DNA from: Desulfitobacteriaceae bacterium
Lineage (GTDB): Bacteria; Bacillota; Dehalobacteriia; Dehalobacteriales; Dehalobacteriaceae
Assembly (NCBI GenBank): GCA_028709045.1
Contig: JAQVXR010000009.1
Coordinates: 1-32,013 of the forward strand
Length of the DNA: 32,013 bases
Reading direction: 5' to 3'
The stretch's first letter is position 1; each line of letters starts with the position of its first letter. Shown piece by piece: positions 9,469 to 19,875 of the stretch. The notes beneath the pieces were generated by a model. That model was not told the origin of the DNA. It saw only the letters and a program-made list of their open reading frames with translations, and did not search any database. A program made the position numbers and the translations under genes.

Positions 9469-10473
9469 TTAGATTAAATTATTTTCAAAATCATTAATAA
9501 AAATATCTTTTTCCCTCCACTGGTTGCACAGTTCCTCTATTTTTTTTGTTAATGATCCTTCATTCCACCAATCTGAATTTTGTTTGTCATAATACTCCCT
9601 TGTTATGCGCCAGGCTCTTTCCGGGAACTCTATAAATGCCGCCAGCACCTTTAACTGATTTTTATCCAACACATAATATTTATTGTAGGCGGACAACAAA
9701 CTTTCTATTTTATTTAATTGCCAGCGGTTACGTCGCAAAAAACGACGAGACAGCTTCCAAAGATCTACTACATTTATCTCTATGGCAGCAGAGTCAAAAT
9801 CTATCAGTATTACCTGACCGTCTTCTATAATAAAGTTTCTCGTCGCCGGATCTCCGTGCACCAGGCATCCCCTTTCCCTTGCCTCTTGCACGAATTGAGG
9901 ATAATAGGAATTTTTTAGTTTCCAAATGCTCTTTCTAGCACGTTCCTCCAACCAGGGTGAAATTGAGATAAGTCTTTTTTCAAAAACTGTTGGGGAAGTA
10001 TTACTTTTGGCCAGGTCAATATATCTAAGGATATCCTGATAGTTTTCTTCTAATTTCCGAGGCCATTTACCTAAATTATTTTTTACCTTGCTCCTTTTGC
10101 CGGGAGTAAAACCAATTCCTGCCCGGTGGCATAAAGCCAGGGTCTCGACTGCCTTAACCATTTGTTCAACGTTACGGTAATCCGGTTCTATCCCGTCCAA
10201 CCACTCCTGGACAATATAATGTGTCCCCTGATATTCTCTTACCATACTTTTATCTAAAGCGGGCAGACACATAGCCATACGGTCGAAGCCATTGGCTTTT
10301 AAATAATGCATGGCCTCTATCATAAAAAGAACCTTTTCTTTTTTAGCATGCACAGCCTTTAAGCAGCGTTTTCCCGTCTGGGTAATTACTAAATAGGCGT
10401 CTCTTCTCTTTTCCAAACGGACAAGTTCTTCTCCCCATAAACCAATAATCTTTTGCGCATCCGAGATTTTCAC
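9469..10473 (-). CDS. CotS-family spore coat kinase-like protein (K6)
   Basis: 334-residue protein of the CotS/YsxE group within the aminoglycoside-phosphotransferase kinase fold. The N-lobe lysine is in RCLK (Lys39). The catalytic loop HGDPATRN (His206, Asp208, Asn213) and the metal motif IDFD (Asp225, Asp227) are intact, so phosphotransfer is possible. No substrate is known. The start is GTG at 10473, behind AGGAGGGGG. It lies 11 bp downstream of a second CotS-like gene and is followed by the phosphoesterase and glycosyltransferase. B. subtilis CotS is an inner-coat protein; localisation here is inferred from family. It has diverged strongly from the other five paralogs. Confidence 0.87.
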   Translation of the reverse strand: MKISDAQKIIGLWGEELVRLEKRRDAYLVITQTGKRCLKAVHAKKEKVLFMIEAMHYLKANGFDRMAMCLPALDKSMVREYQGTHYIVQEWLDGIEPDYRNVEQMVKAVETLALCHRAGIGFTPGKRSKVKNNLGKWPRKLEENYQDILRYIDLAKSNTSPTVFEKRLISISPWLEERARKSIWKLKNSYYPQFVQEARERGCLVHGDPATRNFIIEDGQVILIDFDSAAIEINVVDLWKLSRRFLRRNRWQLNKIESLLSAYNKYYVLDKNQLKVLAAFIEFPERAWRITREYYDKQNSDWWNEGSLTKKIEELCNQWREKDIFINDFENNLI

Positions 10474-10484
10474 GAAACCCCCTC

Positions 10485-11489
10485 CTACTGCCGGCAGTAC
10501 TCCAAAGTAAAGTGATTAATAAAATTTTCTTTTGGATCGGTGTTTTTTACCGCCTGCTTTAGTTTCTTGATATACCCTTCTTCTTGCCAGCGTTTTTTCT
10601 TTTTAAAATACCGGTTGCTAACTCTCCAGGCTTTTTGGGGGAACTGGAAAAAGGCCTTCATTACCATGTACTCATTAGCCCCAAGCGGTGCCATCTTGTT
10701 ATACTCATTGATTATGAAATCAGCCCTTTCCGGTTTCCAGGAAACATCCTTTAAGGTTCTTTCCACTAAGCGAACAACGTCTGTCAGACGCAAGTCATAC
10801 CTGCAGTAATCAAAGTCAATCATATAAGCTTGGCGATCCCGGGCAATAATAAAATTCCGATCAGCTACATCACGATGCGTAAAAGTTCCTTGTTTTTGAG
10901 CATCCTCAGCCAAATCCTTATACCGGGAGGCGGACAAATGGGCACATGCTCTTTCCGCCTGGTCAATTATTCTGTCTGAATAATGCAAGTATTTCTTTTC
11001 AAAATCAGTTTTTTTTACTTTTTCCTGAACCAGATTTTTAAACTGCTTTAAGTCTTCTGTCCTTTCCTGAAATATTTTTGGCCATCTTTGATACATTGCC
11101 CTGGCTTTTCCCCTAGGCAGTACGTTCGCTCCTTTTGCGACCAAATGTAATTCTCCCAGAGTTTGTACTGCCGCTTTTAAATGGTTGTTTCGATGAAAAT
11201 CACAAGGTACTCCGGATATCCATTTGGTGATAAAATATATTTCCCCATCCATTTTAACGAAAGGATCCCCCCTTTTCGTTGGAACAGGCGGTGAAATTTT
11301 TCTAAACCCGCTCTCCAGCAAATGTTTCAACACCGAATAAATAAATAGCACTTTCTCTTCATTCCTATCAGAATGCTTTAAACACATCGGCCCGACATCT
11401 GTGTCAATCTTGAAAACCCTGTCCTGAATCTGGACTGCATCTCTAATTTGAAAAGGATATTCTTGCAGCACCAGCGGGTCCAATTTCAT
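10485..11489 (-). CDS. CotS-family spore coat kinase-like protein (K5)
   Basis: First gene of the kinase-kinase-phosphoesterase-glycosyltransferase unit; 334 residues from the chosen start. The kinase-fold residues are complete: N-lobe MCLK (Lys38), catalytic loop HRDVADRN (about 205-212) and IDFDYC (about 224-229). The C-terminal region FFQFPQKAWRVSNRYF matches a segment conserved in its paralogs. I prefer ATG 11489 because AAGGAG is 9 nt upstream; a TTG at 11495 is only 3 nt from that site. Family knowledge suggests a spore coat location, produced in the mother cell. The substrate could be a protein or a sugar. Confidence 0.88.
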   Translation of the reverse strand: MKLDPLVLQEYPFQIRDAVQIQDRVFKIDTDVGPMCLKHSDRNEEKVLFIYSVLKHLLESGFRKISPPVPTKRGDPFVKMDGEIYFITKWISGVPCDFHRNNHLKAAVQTLGELHLVAKGANVLPRGKARAMYQRWPKIFQERTEDLKQFKNLVQEKVKKTDFEKKYLHYSDRIIDQAERACAHLSASRYKDLAEDAQKQGTFTHRDVADRNFIIARDRQAYMIDFDYCRYDLRLTDVVRLVERTLKDVSWKPERADFIINEYNKMAPLGANEYMVMKAFFQFPQKAWRVSNRYFKKKKRWQEEGYIKKLKQAVKNTDPKENFINHFTLEYCRQ

Positions 11490-11581
11490 ACCCAAAAACT
11501 CCTTTCATCCCGCCTTAGTAAACTTCATTATTATAGTTATGTAGATATGCTTATCCAAATTGATTTTTTCCAAAATAAAAG

Positions 11582-11622: not shown

Positions 11623-12423
11623 TTAGACCAGCGTATTAAAAATTAAATTTTGACATCGCACTAATTCTAAAATAGGATCTGTTAAGTGACTTAAAGGTGT
11701 TTTCAGGGTGAAAATTCCTTCGTATCCCAGATGCTTAAGGCTGAAACCTGCTTCCACAAAATCAATGTTTCCCTTTCCCAATGCCGGTGATTTATGATAG
11801 CCGTTGTCATCTTCTTGCCTAGAGGTATAATCATTTACATAAATATTATCCGGTAAAATATCCGTTTCTTCACAGAACTTGCCTACGGTAAAGCCTGCTG
11901 CTGCTAAAAAACTCATGTCTAGAGATAAATAAATCAACTCTTGCCCAAACTCCTTAATAACTTTTTTAAAATAATCACTGCAACCATCAATATGCGCAGT
12001 CTCAATACTTAAACGAAAGTCCCGTGCCTCAGTCCAGGGCAGAAGATCATACAAAAGAGCTTTAAGTTTTTCTTCTGCTGCCCCTTTGGTGTCCAACCAG
12101 GGCGGATATATAATCCCCAGGTCACAATCTATTGCCAGGGAAGCATCTACCAACTCCTTAACCCGCTTTAGGCAGTAACTTTTAGGTTCATCAAACAACC
12201 CCTCCGGAAAATGGACTGAAGTAACAGGCATACCATATCGGATGATCGTCCTTTTAATCCGCCTAATATCTTGTTGGCGAGGAGTCCTTAAAAATGCTTC
12301 TATGCCGTCAAAACCAGCATCCCTGATAATGGGTATATAATATACTGTAATATCGGCCAGCTCTCCATCTGAAAAATATTTATTAACAAAGTTTAATACT
12401 GAGCAGGAAACCGGGTTTCTCAA
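11623..12423 (-). CDS. Sugar-isomerase/AP-endonuclease-2-like TIM barrel protein
   Basis: 266-residue protein resembling the xylose-isomerase-like TIM barrel (sugar phosphate isomerase/epimerase) family. Support comes from the strand order, DAGFDGIEAFL near the N-terminus, LSIETAHIDG mid-protein and LGKGNIDF followed by LGYEGIFTLKT at the end. Usual metal ligands look only partly kept: the IET glutamate and the SLDMS aspartate are present. The histidine of the usual D..H pair, the HxxD pair (here YVNDYT) and the last strand's glutamate (here TLKT) are not. It may therefore be non-catalytic or have altered chemistry. The start is TTG at 12423, behind GAGGGG. It is flanked by terminators on both sides, so it is monocistronic inside the coat island. 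Confidence 0.75.
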   Translation of the reverse strand: MRNPVSCSVLNFVNKYFSDGELADITVYYIPIIRDAGFDGIEAFLRTPRQQDIRRIKRTIIRYGMPVTSVHFPEGLFDEPKSYCLKRVKELVDASLAIDCDLGIIYPPWLDTKGAAEEKLKALLYDLLPWTEARDFRLSIETAHIDGCSDYFKKVIKEFGQELIYLSLDMSFLAAAGFTVGKFCEETDILPDNIYVNDYTSRQEDDNGYHKSPALGKGNIDFVEAGFSLKHLGYEGIFTLKTPLSHLTDPILELVRCQNLIFNTLV

Positions 12424-12488
12424 ACAGACCCCTCGCTTTTATTTTCTTTCGTTTTACAACTTATGTGCGAGGGGAAAAATCGGTGAAA

Positions 12489-12514
12489 AAAACCGGCCAT
12501 TTTTGACCGGTTTA
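12489..12514 (-). terminator. Terminator after the kinase/GH18-like fusion gene
   Basis: Minus-strand stem AAACCGGTC/GGCCGGTTT with one G-U pair and a 6-nt loop, followed by TTTT. It begins 4 bp after the stop codon. Confidence 0.85.
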
Positions 12515-12518
12515 AATA

Positions 12519-14504
12519 CTATTCCTCTTCCGTACTATCTTCTTCATCACTAAAAGATTCCGCAAATTCCATTTGCTCAGGGAAATCTTCTTCTATAAAA
12601 GAAGCGGGATCTGCCAGTCCTAATCTCCAAAACGCACAACCGGCAGCACCCTTCTCTCGTATCATTGACTCCTTTTCCTTGATTGAAACAGCATCTTCAG
12701 CCCAAACTTCACATTCATCATTCAACTTACCAAACAGGCACCCGGAAACAGGATCTCTCTCCAATTTGGTTTCAGCACTATCCGCCAGTCTGTTAACCTC
12801 ATCAAAACTTAACGGCTGTCTGATATTTTTCCCTGCCCACCACCGGTAGCCATAAACAGGTAACACCCCAACTATTTTACCTATTGGAATATAAGATGCA
12901 ATATATTCCAATGCCTCATTAACAAAACCTCGGGAAACAACTGGCCCGGGAAAACGCAGGTTTTCATCAAGCAGTTCCACTAAAACATAATCTGCGTAAC
13001 GTCCCAAAAAAAGATAGTCAAATACATCTTCCCCTTTCGGGGCGCTAACGTTAACCAGCAGTGACCTGCCTTCCGGCCTCAACTTCTCCGACAAAATTTC
13101 CACAAAGCAATTAAAATATCCGGTATTTTCCGGGTGTAATAAATCAATATTGATGTTTACCCCAGGATAGTTATTTTCTTTAAGTATAGCAGCAATATTA
13201 TTCGCTAGCTTTTCTCTTGTATCCTCCTCCGCCAGTGCCTGCATAACTTGCCCTTGGTTTTCGGAGAAACCGGCACTAAATATAACAGGGTAAAGGGGGA
13301 TCCCTCTTTCATTGGCTAACCTGCGAATTTCTTTATCTACTTCTCCCTTCAGGTTTCCCCGGGCATCCACATTATAACTGAGAGGAAGCAAACAGGAGAC
13401 AGCTCCCTTGGGGAAATCCGATGAAACATTGTGGCCAGGTAAACAGTACCACATTCTTGAGACAATATCTCCCTGATCTTGAGAAGATTTTACCCGTTTT
13501 AAATTGTGTATATCAAAAAACGCATCAAGAAATGCTTCCTTCTCTTTTTCCTTATCTAACATCTTCTGGATCTTACGGTAAAGCTTATTTTGGTCAACCC
13601 GTCCTTTCTCAAATTTCTTAATTAGTTTAAGAAAATCTTTCGGATAAATAAGAAGTGCTCCGAGAACAAAAAGTTCATCCCCCGTTAATTTTCGGATCGA
13701 ATTATAAGACTCCAAAATACCTTCCCCAATGGAATAATCCCAATTGTAGTGGGGCATTACCTTATCCATAAAATTAGCCAGATCGGCTACCTGAATTCCT
13801 AAGGCGCAGTGTTCCCAACGAATGGCTTCAGGATAATTTTCCATAATCAGGTTTGCGGGGATATACTCCCTGTGGCACAAGGTGCCTTCCCTCATAGACC
13901 ATTTCTTCAACGAATCATATTCTTTGTTTCCCAAAAGGTCCAACGCTTCTTGGGCAGAATCTTTGATATCAGCCCAAGCTTGGCTGAATTCCCTTGGAAG
14001 TCGGTCAAGGTTCTGCTCAATATAGTTTTTTTCAGCAGCCATCTTTTCGGAAAGTTCATTCCATCTTTCCCTGGAAGCTTTCTTAATCTTCGGTGCAAAG
14101 TTTTTCGCGGAAAAATGAATTTCCCCTAAAGACTCAGCCGCAGCATAAATATGATCGGGGTTTTTTATTTTAAAGCTTTTCCCGTCAACCCAATCTGTCA
14201 GGTAATAAACATGAAAATTATGCCTAACAAAAATATCGCCGTATTTTGTAGGAATCAACCTGGGAATACTATGCCGATAACCGTTATGCGCTATATGTTC
14301 GAGGGCCTGGTGCATAAAAATTACCCTGTCTTCAAATAAAGATTTTTTTAACATTTTGTAACCATGATTAGTTTTTATTTTATATCCGTACTTTGTATCT
14401 TTAATTTTACGTACCGGAAGATCCCATTCCTTAATTATCTCTACAAGATCCCAAGATTCCAGCGTCAACTTTTCCTTTTCCTTCCTGACCTTCTTTTTGC
14501 TCAT
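12519..14504 (-). CDS. Fusion of CotS-like pseudokinase and GH18/YaaH-like domain (K4)
   Basis: 661-residue two-domain protein. Residues ~15-335 are CotS-like, including the N-lobe lysine (Lys53) and the conserved C-terminal segment. The catalytic loop reads HREYIPAN (Asp to Glu), and the IDFD motif is replaced by IRWE, so kinase activity is doubtful. Residues ~350-635 resemble the GH18 domain of spore proteins such as YaaH/SleL: PGVNINID, then GPVVSRGFVNEALEYI, then VGVLPVYGYRWW. The GH18 catalytic signature DxxDxDxE is degenerate here; the acid position reads Asp in NINID and MTYD is replaced by VELLD. The tail is very acidic. Start ATG 14504 is preferred because GGAGGG lies 6 nt upstream; ATG 14510 abuts that site. 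It lies 21 bp after another degenerate CotS gene, forming a two-gene unit. A structural or carbohydrate-binding coat role is my inference. Confidence 0.8.
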   Translation of the reverse strand: MSKKKVRKEKEKLTLESWDLVEIIKEWDLPVRKIKDTKYGYKIKTNHGYKMLKKSLFEDRVIFMHQALEHIAHNGYRHSIPRLIPTKYGDIFVRHNFHVYYLTDWVDGKSFKIKNPDHIYAAAESLGEIHFSAKNFAPKIKKASRERWNELSEKMAAEKNYIEQNLDRLPREFSQAWADIKDSAQEALDLLGNKEYDSLKKWSMREGTLCHREYIPANLIMENYPEAIRWEHCALGIQVADLANFMDKVMPHYNWDYSIGEGILESYNSIRKLTGDELFVLGALLIYPKDFLKLIKKFEKGRVDQNKLYRKIQKMLDKEKEKEAFLDAFFDIHNLKRVKSSQDQGDIVSRMWYCLPGHNVSSDFPKGAVSCLLPLSYNVDARGNLKGEVDKEIRRLANERGIPLYPVIFSAGFSENQGQVMQALAEEDTREKLANNIAAILKENNYPGVNINIDLLHPENTGYFNCFVEILSEKLRPEGRSLLVNVSAPKGEDVFDYLFLGRYADYVLVELLDENLRFPGPVVSRGFVNEALEYIASYIPIGKIVGVLPVYGYRWWAGKNIRQPLSFDEVNRLADSAETKLERDPVSGCLFGKLNDECEVWAEDAVSIKEKESMIREKGAAGCAFWRLGLADPASFIEEDFPEQMEFAESFSDEEDSTEEE

Positions 14505-14525
14505 TCCCATCCCTCCAACAATACC

Positions 14526-15521
14526 CTAAAAACCAAGGTACATTAAACACTGTTCCTTTAGTTCTTCTTTTTCCCGGCATATTTCTAAAATACTAATTGT
14601 CTCATCCGTGGTTGCTTCCTGCCTAACCAGTTCTTTTAGCGCTTCCCAATAATTAAAAGGGAATCTCAAGTAAGCACTCACAATTTCCCATTCTGCTGGG
14701 TAAAGATGGTAACCCCGATCGTAACTCTCTATGATATTTTTAATTATGGTTGGTTTCCATTGGTTTTTACCTGCAACCAACAAGATGAGTTTAGCCAAGT
14801 CGGCTAGACGTATGTCTCGGGACCATTCGTCAAAACCGGCAACAAACACTTTTCCCCGATTCCCCATAATAATGTGGTGTTCATTAAAGGCACCGTGACA
14901 AAATCCTTTTTCCCGCCCAGCTTTTTCTTGAATTACCCGGTACCCTGAATCCTTTAATAAACGGCAAGAAATGAGCGCCCGTCCTGTCATATCACGGAAT
15001 AATCTTTTAACATGCTTATCCATGTTTATTTCCGAATTAATCTCCATCATTTTTTGAGCCATACACTGAAATCTCTGCTGCCAATTTATAAATGCATTCC
15101 TCTCTTCTCCGGTCACATTAAAGGCTTTTGAAGCAAGATGTAATTCGGCTAGTTTCTCCGCCACCAGAAAAACGTCTATCTGATTCTCCCAATCAGGAGG
15201 ACATCCGTCAAACCAATCAGAAATACCGTAAAATTTATCCGTCTCAATTTTGACATAAGGATTTCCAAACCTCGTCCGGATCAATCGGGGTACGCTTTTA
15301 AAACCCCGGCTAGATAGGTGCTCCAGGAGCAGAAAAAATTTGTGCATATCCGCATCTTTTTTCTGCAATACTTTTAGACATTTTGGTCCGGATTGCGTTT
15401 CAAGTAAAACTACTTTTCCCTTGGGATAAACCCCCAGCACATTCAAATCCCATTGCTCAATGACGCCTTTAGAGATATTTAGCAGTTCCAGATTATCCCA
15501 GAGCCTCCGCCTGACACCCAA
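14526..15521 (-). CDS. CotS-family protein with degenerate active site (K3)
   Basis: 331-residue CotS-like protein. The fold-typical segments are present: KCLK (Lys50), LAELHLASKAF, and YLRFPFNYWEALKEL. The catalytic loop reads HGAFNEHH, replacing the catalytic aspartate by Ala211 and the metal asparagine by His216. The DFD motif reads AGFDE. It is therefore probably a pseudokinase. The start is TTG at 15521 with AAGGAGG about 11 nt upstream. It is the first gene of the unit that continues into the kinase/GH18-like fusion, so both degenerate members of the six-gene family share one transcript. It may act as a scaffold or as a regulator of the active paralogs. Confidence 0.85.
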   Translation of the reverse strand: MGVRRRLWDNLELLNISKGVIEQWDLNVLGVYPKGKVVLLETQSGPKCLKVLQKKDADMHKFFLLLEHLSSRGFKSVPRLIRTRFGNPYVKIETDKFYGISDWFDGCPPDWENQIDVFLVAEKLAELHLASKAFNVTGEERNAFINWQQRFQCMAQKMMEINSEINMDKHVKRLFRDMTGRALISCRLLKDSGYRVIQEKAGREKGFCHGAFNEHHIIMGNRGKVFVAGFDEWSRDIRLADLAKLILLVAGKNQWKPTIIKNIIESYDRGYHLYPAEWEIVSAYLRFPFNYWEALKELVRQEATTDETISILEICREKEELKEQCLMYLGF

Positions 15522-15712: not shown

Positions 15713-16576
15713 TTATTTCGGAATTGATAAGAGCATTCCTGTCTTTATCTCTTCCTCACTAATCCCGTTGACAGATTTAATTATCTCCTTAGAAACCTCT
15801 AATCTTTCGGCTATAGCATCTAAGTCCTCTCCCCACTGCACCCGGTAAAATTTCATTTGATAAAAACCCGAGCTAGGGAAAAATGCCCGCTGTTCTTCTC
15901 GATAACTGTGTTTGATTTCAGGAGGCTGCCAACTGTCCCTCTTTACTTCTGTCTCCTGACACATTGTTTCCGTTTGGCACCGGCAGCTCGTAACAGCATC
16001 CGGAACCGACTGATCTTCTATGGATTCCGCTAAAATATCTCCTCTCATTTCTTCAGAAGCTAATGGCAAGTCCTCTGCCGGAGCTTTTTCACTTTCTAAT
16101 TTTAAAACAGCCTCAAATTCTATTGCTCTGGGGCTAACCTGCATCCAGTTAACATTCTGGACAATCGGTTCTACTCTTAATACATCATCTTTGTCCATCA
16201 CTTCTTTGCCAACTGCCAATGTGAACGGAATTTCTAAATTTATCCTTTGGTACTCTTCACAAGAAACATCCTCCTCATTACGGAAGGACTCCTCCAAATT
16301 CCTGAGGCTTTCTTCATCTGAGACACCGCTATTTTCCTTGGCCTCATCTAACTCGTCCAAATCTATCTTCCGCCACATTGGACTGTCTTCAGCTGTAATC
16401 AGCGGTCGGTAAGAAAGCTCAATCTGCATGTCACCGCTAATTGTGATCTCGGTATCATTTGCATCCGCATTTCTGATCTTGGGGTCGACAGATATATTTC
16501 CAACCTCTTGAATATCAGGGTTGCCATCCGGAACAAACAGTGTTTTTATTATCGGTGCAACAAAATCACTTTTCAT
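15713..16576 (-). CDS. SpoVID/SipL-like spore coat morphogenetic protein with C-terminal LysM
   Basis: 287-residue protein with two recognisable parts. Residues ~15-165 are beta-rich and resemble the SPOCS/DUF3794-type domain of SpoVID and SipL (ISVDPKI, SGDMQIELSYRPL, EFEAVLKL). A Glu/Asp-rich linker follows. The last ~45 residues form a LysM module (FYRVQWGEDLDAIAERL, VNGI, KTGMLLSIPK). SpoVID and SipL tether the coat to the forespore surface through SpoIVA and SafA-type partners. ATG 16576 is chosen because GGGGAGGG is placed well; the longer TTG frame has no such site. It is a single-gene unit between two terminators with a sigma-E-like promoter. Exact equivalence to SpoVID versus SipL cannot be decided by eye. 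Confidence 0.75.
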   Translation of the reverse strand: MKSDFVAPIIKTLFVPDGNPDIQEVGNISVDPKIRNADANDTEITISGDMQIELSYRPLITAEDSPMWRKIDLDELDEAKENSGVSDEESLRNLEESFRNEEDVSCEEYQRINLEIPFTLAVGKEVMDKDDVLRVEPIVQNVNWMQVSPRAIEFEAVLKLESEKAPAEDLPLASEEMRGDILAESIEDQSVPDAVTSCRCQTETMCQETEVKRDSWQPPEIKHSYREEQRAFFPSSGFYQMKFYRVQWGEDLDAIAERLEVSKEIIKSVNGISEEEIKTGMLLSIPK

Positions 16577-16605
16577 CCTCTTCCCTCCCCGGTAAACTCT
16601 CAATA

Positions 16606-16731: not shown

Positions 16732-17850
16732 TTATCTCAATACATCCTGGTACACTTTTATTGTTTGCCCGGCAGTTTTCGTCCAAGAGAATTCACTCGC
16801 TCTTTTCGGGCCCTTCTTTTTAAGTTCTTGAGCTAATTCCGGTTCGGTAAGCACCCGGTGCATAGCTGTTGCTAAAGCAAGAATGTCTCGGGGATTAATT
16901 AAAATAGCCGCACCATCCACTACTTCCGGAAGGGAGGAAACGTTAGAAGTAATAGTTGGGGTGCCGCAAGCCAAAGCTTCAATAGGCGGGAGGCCAAACC
17001 CTTCATAAAAAGACGGGTAGACAAATAGCTCCGCAGCATTATAAAAAAAGGGGAGGTCCTGTACGGGAATAAACCCGGGAAACAGCACCCGTTCTTGAAG
17101 ATCGAGCCTTTCCACCAGATCAACCAAGCCATGATAATCCCGGGAATGCTTACCCAAAATCACCAGCTTGCAATTCATCTTGATATCTTTATAAATCTTA
17201 TGATAAGCATTGATCAATCCGCGCAAATTCTTTCTTGGACTAAAACCTCCGATATAAAGTATAAAGTTCTCTCCAATACCGTATTTGTTTTTGATTCGAG
17301 CTTTAGCCACATCTCTTTTAATCGGTTTATAAGTGGATTCCGGCGCCTCGTAAATCACGGTGATTCTCTCTTCAGGAACATGCATAATTTCTTGCAAGTC
17401 CTTTTTGGAATGCTCGGATACCGTGATAATGTGGTCTGTTTCATCTAAAATGCGCGGCATCTCCCGCTGAAAAATTTTCAAATATCCCGGGCCCACCGTT
17501 TCTTCCAAAACATAGGGAATTAAGTCATGGACAGTAACCACGGTGGGACATGTCTTTTCCGGCGGCAGACCGATCCCGTTTTGGGGAACATGAAACACAT
17601 TCATTCCTTCTGGATTAATTGTTTCAGCGGCAATTACCGTTTCCCAGAATGCATCTTTAGATTGGGAAATGCTTTGAAATACACCGCTTGTCAGCGGGTC
17701 TGTCCCTTGAAAGCTCTCATGGGGAAGAAAAAAATGATACTCATTTTTTTTATCTATCAAGTAAATATTTCTAATTAGCTGGTAGGTATAGGTTCCCATT
17801 CCGGTTCCCCGGTACCAGATAGCCGCCCGACTATCAATGCCCACCTTCAT
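16732..17850 (-). CDS. Family-4 glycosyltransferase, CotSA-like (GT-A)
   Basis: 372-residue retaining GT-B-fold glycosyltransferase and close paralog of the gene at 7702-8823. It shares VGID[16 protein letters not shown], [23 protein letters not shown] and GGFSPRKN. The donor-site EX7E motif EGFGLPPIE is at about residues 283-291. ATG 17850 is preferred, with GGGGTG 9 nt upstream; a GTG at 17862 is crowded against the same site. Its ribosome-binding site overlaps the stop of the upstream kinase gene, so translation may be coupled. Third gene of a kinase-kinase-glycosyltransferase unit. A spore-coat role is inferred from the CotS/CotSA neighbourhood and the nearby GDP-mannose genes. Confidence 0.9.
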
Positions 17851-17866
17851 TATATCTTTCACCCCG

Positions 17867-18874
17867 TTACATCAGTTTCTTCAGCCGTTTAAGGCTGTTT
17901 TTCCTTGACTCTTTTTCCATCACCCATTGCTTTATTTTACGTTCAAGACGCTCTCGGGGTTGATTCTTTTCCACATAATATGCAAAAGCTACTTGCCAGA
18001 AATCCTGAGGAAACCTAAGGAGTGCGCTGATAACCCCTGCCTCACAAGATGAAACTCTCCTCACGCGGTCATAATATTTTAAAGCATACAACGCCTTCTT
18101 ATAATTCCATTTACTTCTTTTCATCACTCTTAACATCAAGCTGGCTACATCGTGACACCGAATGTCGCTGATACAGTAATCAAAATCAATGACATGGCCT
18201 TGGTACGATCTGTCAATGATTACATTATGGTTAGCATAATCATGATGACAAAAATAATGGTTTTCAGCTTCTTTCCTGTTAACCCTTTCATAATCTTCCT
18301 TTATCAAAGTTTCCAGCGCCCGCTTAGCTTCTTCCACGTAATAATCAACATGAGAAAGGAACACTTGGTCAAATAGGGTTTTTATATTCTTTTTGTTCAC
18401 CTGTTCTTTAAACTTTAACAGCTCTTCCATTTTATTCAGCATATTAGCCGGCCAACTGCCCCATTTTATCCTCCCCTCAAAATAGGGAGGGATAAAACCT
18501 TTTGAACTTTGGTGTAATTGAGCTAGCGTACGGGCAGCAATTTTTAAATCCTTTTTGTGATTATAATCGGCTTCTCTTCCCATAATCCAGCGGGACAGAA
18601 AATACCGCTTCCCGTTATATTCAACAAAGGGATAAGCGTTTTGGGTAATTATCATCCGGTTGATGCGATCAAAACCTTGCGCCGCCAGATGTTCCATGGC
18701 AGCATATATGTAGCGAAATTCATCCTCAGAGTATTTGATTTCTTTTAAAGCAAAAAAACCTTCATCTGCTTCAACTCGGTAAACCATTTTATACGGTTCA
18801 ACCTTCTTTGGGTTGATGGGAAAACACTTTAACAACTCACGAAACTGTTCTGGCAATCGATAAAGGTAGCCCAT
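17867..18874 (-). CDS. CotS-family spore coat kinase-like protein (K2)
   Basis: 335-residue CotS-like protein with an intact kinase-fold active site: N-lobe FALK (Lys44), catalytic loop HHDYANHN (His211, Asp212, Asn217) and VIDFDYC (Asp230, Asp232). The shared C-terminal segment ALLRFPQDFWQVAFAYY is present, followed by a highly basic tail. ATG 18874 has GAGGAG 8 nt upstream. It lies 12 bp after the upstream kinase gene K1 and 16 bp before the glycosyltransferase, so the three are co-transcribed. The substrate is unknown; phosphorylation of coat protein or sugar is possible from the fold. Confidence 0.88.
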   Translation of the reverse strand: MGYLYRLPEQFRELLKCFPINPKKVEPYKMVYRVEADEGFFALKEIKYSEDEFRYIYAAMEHLAAQGFDRINRMIITQNAYPFVEYNGKRYFLSRWIMGREADYNHKKDLKIAARTLAQLHQSSKGFIPPYFEGRIKWGSWPANMLNKMEELLKFKEQVNKKNIKTLFDQVFLSHVDYYVEEAKRALETLIKEDYERVNRKEAENHYFCHHDYANHNVIIDRSYQGHVIDFDYCISDIRCHDVASLMLRVMKRSKWNYKKALYALKYYDRVRRVSSCEAGVISALLRFPQDFWQVAFAYYVEKNQPRERLERKIKQWVMEKESRKNSLKRLKKLM

Positions 18875-18886
18875 ATTTTCAACTCC

Positions 18887-19875
18887 TCAGGGGTTAAATC
18901 TTTCTCTAATCCTCTTTAACACCTGGGTCTTTTGATCGCGACAGCTTAATTCTTGCTTTAGAAATTCCACCACTCCTTTTGTCCTTTTGGAGGAAAAATA
19001 CCACCGGTGTCCGGCACGCCATATGTCATGGGGAAATTTCAATACTGTCAGCAATAGCTTTTGTTCCGTTAAAGATAAAGGATAATATCGGTGATACCAA
19101 TAAACAATTTCTTCTGCCAAACCCTGATTCCAGTTATATTGTTTTCCGCAGGTCCTGACAAAACGGCTTAGGTCCGTGATGCGTGAATCCTGAACACAGT
19201 AGTCAAAATCAATCAGGTAAACATTAGGCTCTTGATAAATAATATTATGGTATACAAAATCTCTATGACAAAGCGGTCTTTTCTTTTGCAATTTTAAACA
19301 GTAGGATGGGTAATCGATCAATGAAAGTTCCTCTACTGCATCCCAAGCATCTTTAACAATTAAGGGATAGATCTTTTGGAAGTCCCGATCAAAGGAGGTC
19401 TCACCGTTTAGGGATAAAGCTGCCATCATTTCCAAATCCCTAATTCTCTGCCGCCACTTTTCCTCCCATTTTCCAATATTATTTCTGGGATAACAATTCT
19501 TTGGAGGAGAGAACCCTTCTCCTAAAAAATGCATTTCGGCCAGCATGCGTACACTCTTTCTTAGTTCAAATGGATCAAGGAAGTTAACATGCCTCCCTTC
19601 AATCCATTCTGTCAAGAACACTAATCCGTCAGTACATTCTACATACATCCCACCACGAGAATTTCTGATTAATCTGGACATATGATAAAACCCTTGATCC
19701 CAAAGAAATTCCATGACAGAGAGATTAAATAATAAGCGGCGGGAATTTGTTTCCACTTTTTTTAACGCAAAACTTCTGCTCCCTGCAGAAACTTTCCAAA
19801 CGGATCCCCGATTTGTAATATTTTCAGGACAAATATCATAACTTGCTAATGCAGGCAGTACCCAGTTATCCCCAT
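18887..19875 (-). CDS. CotS-family kinase-like gene with apparent start-codon frameshift (K1)
   Basis: First gene of the kinase-kinase-glycosyltransferase unit. The frame ending at 18887 has the full active site: LCHRDFVYHN, LIDFDYC and VLKFPHDIWRAGHRWYF. The first usual start codon in this frame is GTG 19756, without a ribosome-binding site, and it would remove the N-lobe lysine (FALKK). However, family-like sequence continues in frame up to 19870 (DNWVLPALASYDICPEN, then SVWKVS and SFALKKV). Just upstream an ATG (19875-19873) behind GGAGGTGAGGG is out of frame by one base. One extra G in its G-tract would give a protein of about 329 residues, matching the paralogs' 331-336. So this is a frameshifted gene, a sequencing error, or a slippage-controlled start. 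Confidence 0.8.

Follow-up and report, generated by a model that had tools for sequence, protein, structure and literature searches.

A CotS-type pseudokinase fused to a degenerate GH18 barrel, a predicted non-catalytic spore-coat protein of Dehalobacteriales

What could be the role of a protein composed of two enzyme folds, each with an altered active site, and is such a protein real? The question is raised by a gene of the window, i.e. the whole stretch of 32,013 nucleotides of contig JAQVXR010000009.1 that was analysed. The window genome, that of an uncultured anaerobe, is a fourth member of the Dehalobacteriales, which have been described as a three-member order (PMC10327494). An earlier note, made from the DNA letters, had proposed that one frame joins a CotS-type domain to a YaaH/SleL-like GH18 domain, that both active sites are altered, and that this reflects selection for binding, for instance to cortex or other glycans, rather than for catalysis.

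The fusion gene, its two domains and their predicted folds

The coding sequence of the fusion (12519..14504; coordinates written in this form refer throughout to minus-strand features of the window) is uninterrupted, with its stop at 12519-12521 and 663 codons counted from the first ATG, at 14510. The start at 14504, which yields about 661 amino acids and was also the one given in the earlier note, was preferred because GGAGG stands 7 nt upstream of this ATG versus only 1 nt upstream of the ATG at 14510, and because the orthologues begin at an equivalent Met (MSKRRK or MSRKSK, similar to MSKKKVRK of the window protein). Direct reading of the sequence places the Shine-Dalgarno-like GGAGGG at 14511..14516. 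Residue numbers are counted from the ATG at 14510, and 2 should be subtracted for the 14504 start. A terminator-like inverted repeat, AAACCGG...CCGGTTT plus a T run, was also read directly, just 3′ of the stop (12486..12513); it was absent from the output of a hairpin scan, its loop being probably longer than 8 nt.

Concerning the N-terminal half (13509..14441, residues 24-334), the NCBIfam model spore_CotS (TIGR02906) matched residues 33-331 with E 1.9e-51 and 174.9 bits, a narrow pass of the curated cut-off of 172.7, and phmmer matched YtaA (2q83) with E 1.5e-9. The C-terminal half (12597..13460, residues 351-638) was matched by Pfam GH18 (PF00704) over residues 408-631, with E 7.9e-11 and 42.6 bits versus a gathering cut-off of 29.6, and by SleL (4s3k) in phmmer, with E 8e-19. 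A linker (13461..13505, residues 336-350), 14% identical to that of the Formimonas orthologue, connects both halves, and an acidic C-terminal tail (12522..12572) is present in the four orthologues known, including barrel-less ones.

A structural model was obtained with AlphaFold2 from 18 aligned rows, in which proteins of the window were combined with those of related loci. Its mean pLDDT was 78.5, with values of about 93 for the CotS half, mostly 60-93 for the barrel, and low for the linker and the tail. In Foldseek comparisons with the PDB, the N-terminal half matched YtaA (2q83_B, E 1.4e-16, TMt 0.83) and 4pdy, while the C-terminal half matched Bacillus subtilis YdhD (3cz8_A, E 1.2e-17, TMt 0.79) and SleL (4s3k, E 4.8e-17). 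Each half matched the family to which it had been assigned, and the C-terminal one was indeed predicted as a GH18 barrel, the details of which are less sure than the fold, because the model was built from only two barrel sequences. The likeness to the spore GH18 proteins YaaH/SleL and YdhD (4s3k, 4s3j, 3cz8) extends to the insertion subdomain and to the VWxE and FWRLGxxDP motifs. The window barrel differs from them in the replacement of the catalytic D, E and Y, and in the fused CotS domain. Another difference is that the N-terminal LysM domains that are a feature of the YaaH/SleL cortex-lytic enzymes are absent from the fusion protein, in which a Pfam scan found no LysM.

As the window is part of a draft assembly of 305 contigs, an assembly or frame artefact could have joined two separate genes. 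The probability of this is practically nil, and the artefact is already refuted by the occurrence of the same full-length fusion, 41% identical over residues 3-662, in the complete chromosome of Ca. Formimonas warabiya DCMF (NZ_CP017634.1), where it has the corresponding place in the cluster. This second copy, the domain matches and the folds together confirm that a single frame fuses CotS and GH18.

The active sites of the two halves

The roles of the kinase residues and the YtaA numbering were taken from the study of bacterial spore kinases (BSK; PMC2860764), where the catalytic Asp (YtaA D239) and the metal-site Asp (D257) are confined to putatively active members, and where pseudokinases show repeated loss of the catalytic Asp with retention of the fold residues. 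In the CotS half, HRE replaces HRD (13866..13874, residues 213-215), with loss of the Asp equivalent to D239, and IRWEHC replaces the IDFD-type metal site (13806..13823, residues 230-235), with loss of the Asp equivalent to D257. By its sequence, this half thus belongs among the BSK pseudokinases, an accepted class, and matches the published pattern. It resembles CotS, CotI/YtaA, YsxE and YutH in family, predicted fold, clustering with glycosyltransferases and loss of the catalytic Asp with fold residues retained; it differs in its GH18 barrel and in the WEHC motif, no fused domain having been found when PMC2860764 was searched by term. The substitutions first noticed in the window protein turned out to be general, as both Asp residues are lost in the four orthologues: position 215 is E, Q, R or R, and position 231 is R, G, C or H. 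The fold residues H132, H213 and D243 (equivalent to H148, H237 and D269 of YtaA) are invariant in all four, and so is WEHC, within a common WEHCAxGxQV motif. The Lys of the ATP site (residue 55) is Met in the Formimonas orthologue.

In GH18 proteins, the active site is formed at the C-terminal ends of the barrel strands. In an alignment with 32 other GH18 domains, 60 columns are conserved in 85% or more of these; the two fused barrels keep 32 of them and both lose 17, including N412, D454, E456, Y514, H517 and D556, which according to model and alignment are located at, or just past, those ends. NINID replaces N-x-D-x-E in the window barrel (13143..13157, residues 452-456), so that the assisting Asp454 is Asn and the catalytic Glu is Asp; the D-x-E motif reads N-x-D there and Y-x-D in the Formimonas barrel. 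Likewise, LLDEN replaces the family motif x-Y-D-E-H (12960..12974, residues 513-517), and the catalytic Tyr514 is Leu in the window protein and Met in that of Formimonas. N412 is also replaced in both barrels, and the changes of H517 to Asn and D556 to Arg are identical in the two copies. Altered active sites in both halves of one polypeptide are therefore found in the two fused genomes, as the earlier note had described for the window.

N-x-D-x-E is retained in nearly all of the 34 other GH18 rows aligned, the one clear exception being a degenerate tandem copy next to an intact GH18 in a distant relative (L057 2458-3444). It reads GVNICFKF instead of GVNIDFEF, its Tyr motif is MTHDEH, and it represents a spore-type GH18 that degenerated independently.

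The earlier note had taken NINID as replacement of the catalytic acid, and had looked on another acidic residue at that position as a contrary sign. Comparison with the 34 GH18 domains upheld the loss of the assisting Asp, but an acidic residue, Asp456, does occupy the position of the catalytic Glu in both fused proteins, so the claim stood only in part. Because of this residue, weak or changed barrel activity could persist, and the barrel might still be a hydrolase or transglycosylase with Asp456 acting as the acid in an altered geometry. The invariance of Asp456 in both copies speaks for it. Against it speak the change of Asp454 to N or Y and of Tyr514 to L or M, and the replacement of N412, H517 and D556 in both barrels; the key residues of hevamine are D125, E127 and Y183 (PMC3662789). 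Catalysis by the barrel, with Asp456 conserved and its partners gone, appears unlikely on these sequence grounds, and the idea of a working enzyme very improbable.

Genomic setting, distribution and history

The fusion gene closes a short run that also contains a SpoVID/SipL-like gene and a CotS pseudokinase gene, and is followed by the terminator-like repeat. The SpoVID/SipL-like coat morphogenetic protein (15713..16603) has SPOCS-like and LysM domains (Pfam LysM, a weak SipL match, and TIGR02907 with E 1.6e-10, below the cut-off). Directly after its gene, and 15 bp upstream of the fusion gene, with which it is probably cotranscribed, lies the gene of a CotS-family protein (14526..15521; TIGR02906 E 6.9e-52; CHGA and AGFD motifs). 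It is a pseudokinase in the four genomes, with CHGA or CHSA for HRD (Asp to Ala), Asn to His and the metal Asp to Gly. The order resembles that of B. subtilis, where ysxE comes after spoVID. The run is flanked by intact-looking CotS-family kinases, two at 17867..19843 and two downstream at 9469..11495 (TIGR02906-type matches and motif alignment), and by GT4 glycosyltransferases, one of which (16732..17862) is conserved in loci L032, L066 and L067; GDP-mannose-type genes are also found in the cluster. This arrangement with the SpoVID-like gene is conserved in the four genomes.

Since SpoIVA was found in all four genomes, and SpoIIE, YabQ, SpoIID and SpoVT in the window, a capacity for coat building is encoded, although no mention of sporulation of Dehalobacteriales members was found in the literature checked, including PMC10327494. 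In B. subtilis, the encasement of YaaH depends on SafA and SpoVID (PMC6282716). As YaaH needs SpoVID, a fusion of CotS-type and YaaH-type modules encoded beside a SpoVID-like gene would fit known coat biology.

The junction just after the fusion gene is variable, because different genes occupy the spot across genomes: a xylose-isomerase-like TIM barrel in the window (11623-12423), to which a gene close to the G165 CotS cluster (L089 1-843) is likely related, other genes in Formimonas (L032 11051-13989), and glutamate dehydrogenase in the two remaining genomes.

Besides the window genome (G000) and Formimonas (G003), which hold the only two full-length copies known, the family includes the MAG DUPU01 (G001) and G002, a complete genome of 3.77 Mb, in both of which the CotS half occurs alone, with a similar acidic tail. 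An alignment-based contig search recovered Formimonas and DUPU01, while a single-protein contig search gave no relatives. The check for the same fusion elsewhere thus provided one further full-length copy and none beyond Dehalobacteriales, as no CotS-GH18 fusion outside its own family appeared in 43 genomes of the class, 399 of the phylum and 399 of relatives (overlapping sets), nor in further class searches of G130, G254 and G125, the last two run without a positive control; about 460 genomes were sampled in all. Long GH18 frames considered as further fusions, in G130 (peptidoglycan-binding-type repeats, intact NIDFE) and G118 (NIDFE), had no CotS half and were rejected. Viral contigs gave only remote matches to phage GH18 pieces, which were not used. 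The earlier note had named no described protein of this architecture, and none was found in the open-licence papers searched. BSK pseudokinases, SleL/YdhD GH18 coat proteins, the CotE peroxiredoxin-GH18 fusion and GH18 lectins are each already known. What looks new is the combination of a BSK pseudokinase with a pseudo-GH18 barrel, which is lineage-restricted and so far known from two genera.

The species order (G000,(G003,(G001,G002))) was obtained from several groups of CotS paralogues, with one small group differing weakly and another unresolved. The two fused barrels are monophyletic in the GH18 tree (100/100), which does not place them, given their very long stem (2.24), flagged for long branches. 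The G001 protein ends with GIAGCAFWQLGEEDPQIW plus the acidic tail, and 14 of these 18 residues match the final strand of the Formimonas barrel, a score reached in 0 of 2000 shuffles; no recognisable barrel remnant was found in the G002 orthologue. At the DUPU01 locus (L011 2476-2604), the barrel has been lost internally and in frame, with the pseudokinase now joined to the final strand and the acidic tail. The species order and the 18-residue remnant show that the fusion is ancestral and that the barrel was deleted later, the simplest history being one fusion before the split of the four genera and one internal deletion in the stem of G001 and G002. In the nearest outgroup CotS, that of G130, both HRD and DFD are intact and a barrel is lacking. 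A feature of its own is an unrelated C-terminal extension of about 85 residues (L037 and L088 3815-5119).

Constraint on the barrel and possible function

Between the window and Formimonas proteins, the CotS half is 41.7% identical over 321 residues and the barrel 43.2% over 287. Divergence of the barrel thus does not exceed that of the CotS half, and the barrel is maintained under constraint in both lineages. This bears on the possibility that it is decaying towards loss, as a relic devoid of any present role. Its deletion in the G001/G002 lineage, with the 18-residue scar in G001, agrees with such decay, and so does the relaxed conservation of the groove described below. On the other hand, two lineages that split before the deletion keep a complete, open barrel of 287 residues with strands 67% identical, and a neutral relic would be expected far below such identity. 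So, a mere relic seems improbable.

The distribution of identity within the barrel was compared with that of two active orthologous GH18 pairs from the same genomes. In the active pairs, the active-face loops (72.5 and 76.7%) were as conserved as the strands (67.5 and 75.0%), while in the fused pair identity was 66.7% for strands, 40.5% for active-face loops and 33.0% for helices. The fall in the loops suggests, at the level of sequence, that the substrate groove is no longer specially constrained. What is maintained in this barrel is, in our view, the fold and perhaps a portion of the upper face, whereas the constraint on the substrate groove in general has been lifted.

The suggestion of selection for binding rather than catalysis can be judged in this light: it fits a barrel that is maintained and not decaying, and its weaker part is the binding to cortex or glycan, with active-face loops at 40%. 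The glycan-binding form of the idea is that the pseudo-barrel, like a chi-lectin, binds a GlcNAc glycan (cortex peptidoglycan, or a coat polysaccharide made by the glycosyltransferases of the cluster) and so anchors the coat. Chi-lectins and pseudo-chitinases (TCLL, YKL-39, YKL-40) are also GH18 barrels with replaced catalytic residues, and relatives with the same losses of D, E and Y bind GlcNAc or chitin (PMC3662789); they differ in being plant or animal proteins with sugar binding shown, while the window protein is known from sequence and model. The groove-type aromatics Y555, W557 and W628 and the PGP loop, retained in both fused barrels, and the GT4 and GDP-mannose-type genes of the cluster agree with a lectin-like barrel. 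The low identity of the active-face loops, the differences between the two copies in several groove loops and the lack of LysM do not. Lectin-like anchoring can thus be regarded as a possible, less well supported explanation.

The interpretation favoured here is that of a mother-cell spore-coat protein derived from two former enzymes and acting, most likely, as a non-catalytic part of coat assembly; its coat location, lack of activity and scaffolding role are predicted. A scaffold is preferred over a classic glycan-binding groove because the fold is maintained while the constraint on the groove is relaxed, and the sequence data favour it, with glycan binding as an additional possibility. The pseudokinase half, a BSK fold that has lost its catalytic and metal-binding Asp, would dock onto coat partners; its coding region comes right after the genes of a SpoVID/SipL-like protein and of another pseudokinase. 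The SleL/YdhD-type barrel, without its catalytic triad, would supply a second contact surface for protein or glycan. That BSKs act in the coat mainly without catalysis is a long-standing suspicion (PMC2860764). The barrel is dispensable in G001 and G002, because it is absent from these two of the four genomes. A more elaborate proposal, rather doubtful at present, is a dedicated coat organiser of Dehalobacteriales, in which the dead kinase fold gathers coat kinases and the SpoVID-like hub while the dead cortex-lytic fold contacts glycan, tying coat to cortex, the barrel being dispensable where another link exists.

A single fusion in which both folds are kept and both catalytic sets discarded may be a pointer, of the Rosetta-stone type, to BSK and GH18 coat proteins working side by side. 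Binding assays on this one polypeptide could also put the scaffold idea to the test, with the natural barrel-less orthologues of the same order as a built-in control. The closest parallel is CotE of Clostridioides difficile (PMC7278498, PMC5853579), also a spore-coat protein that combines another enzyme domain with a C-terminal GH18 barrel; it differs in carrying a peroxiredoxin instead of a kinase fold, in being described as an active chitinase, and in that its structure was solved with a ChiA1-type search model.
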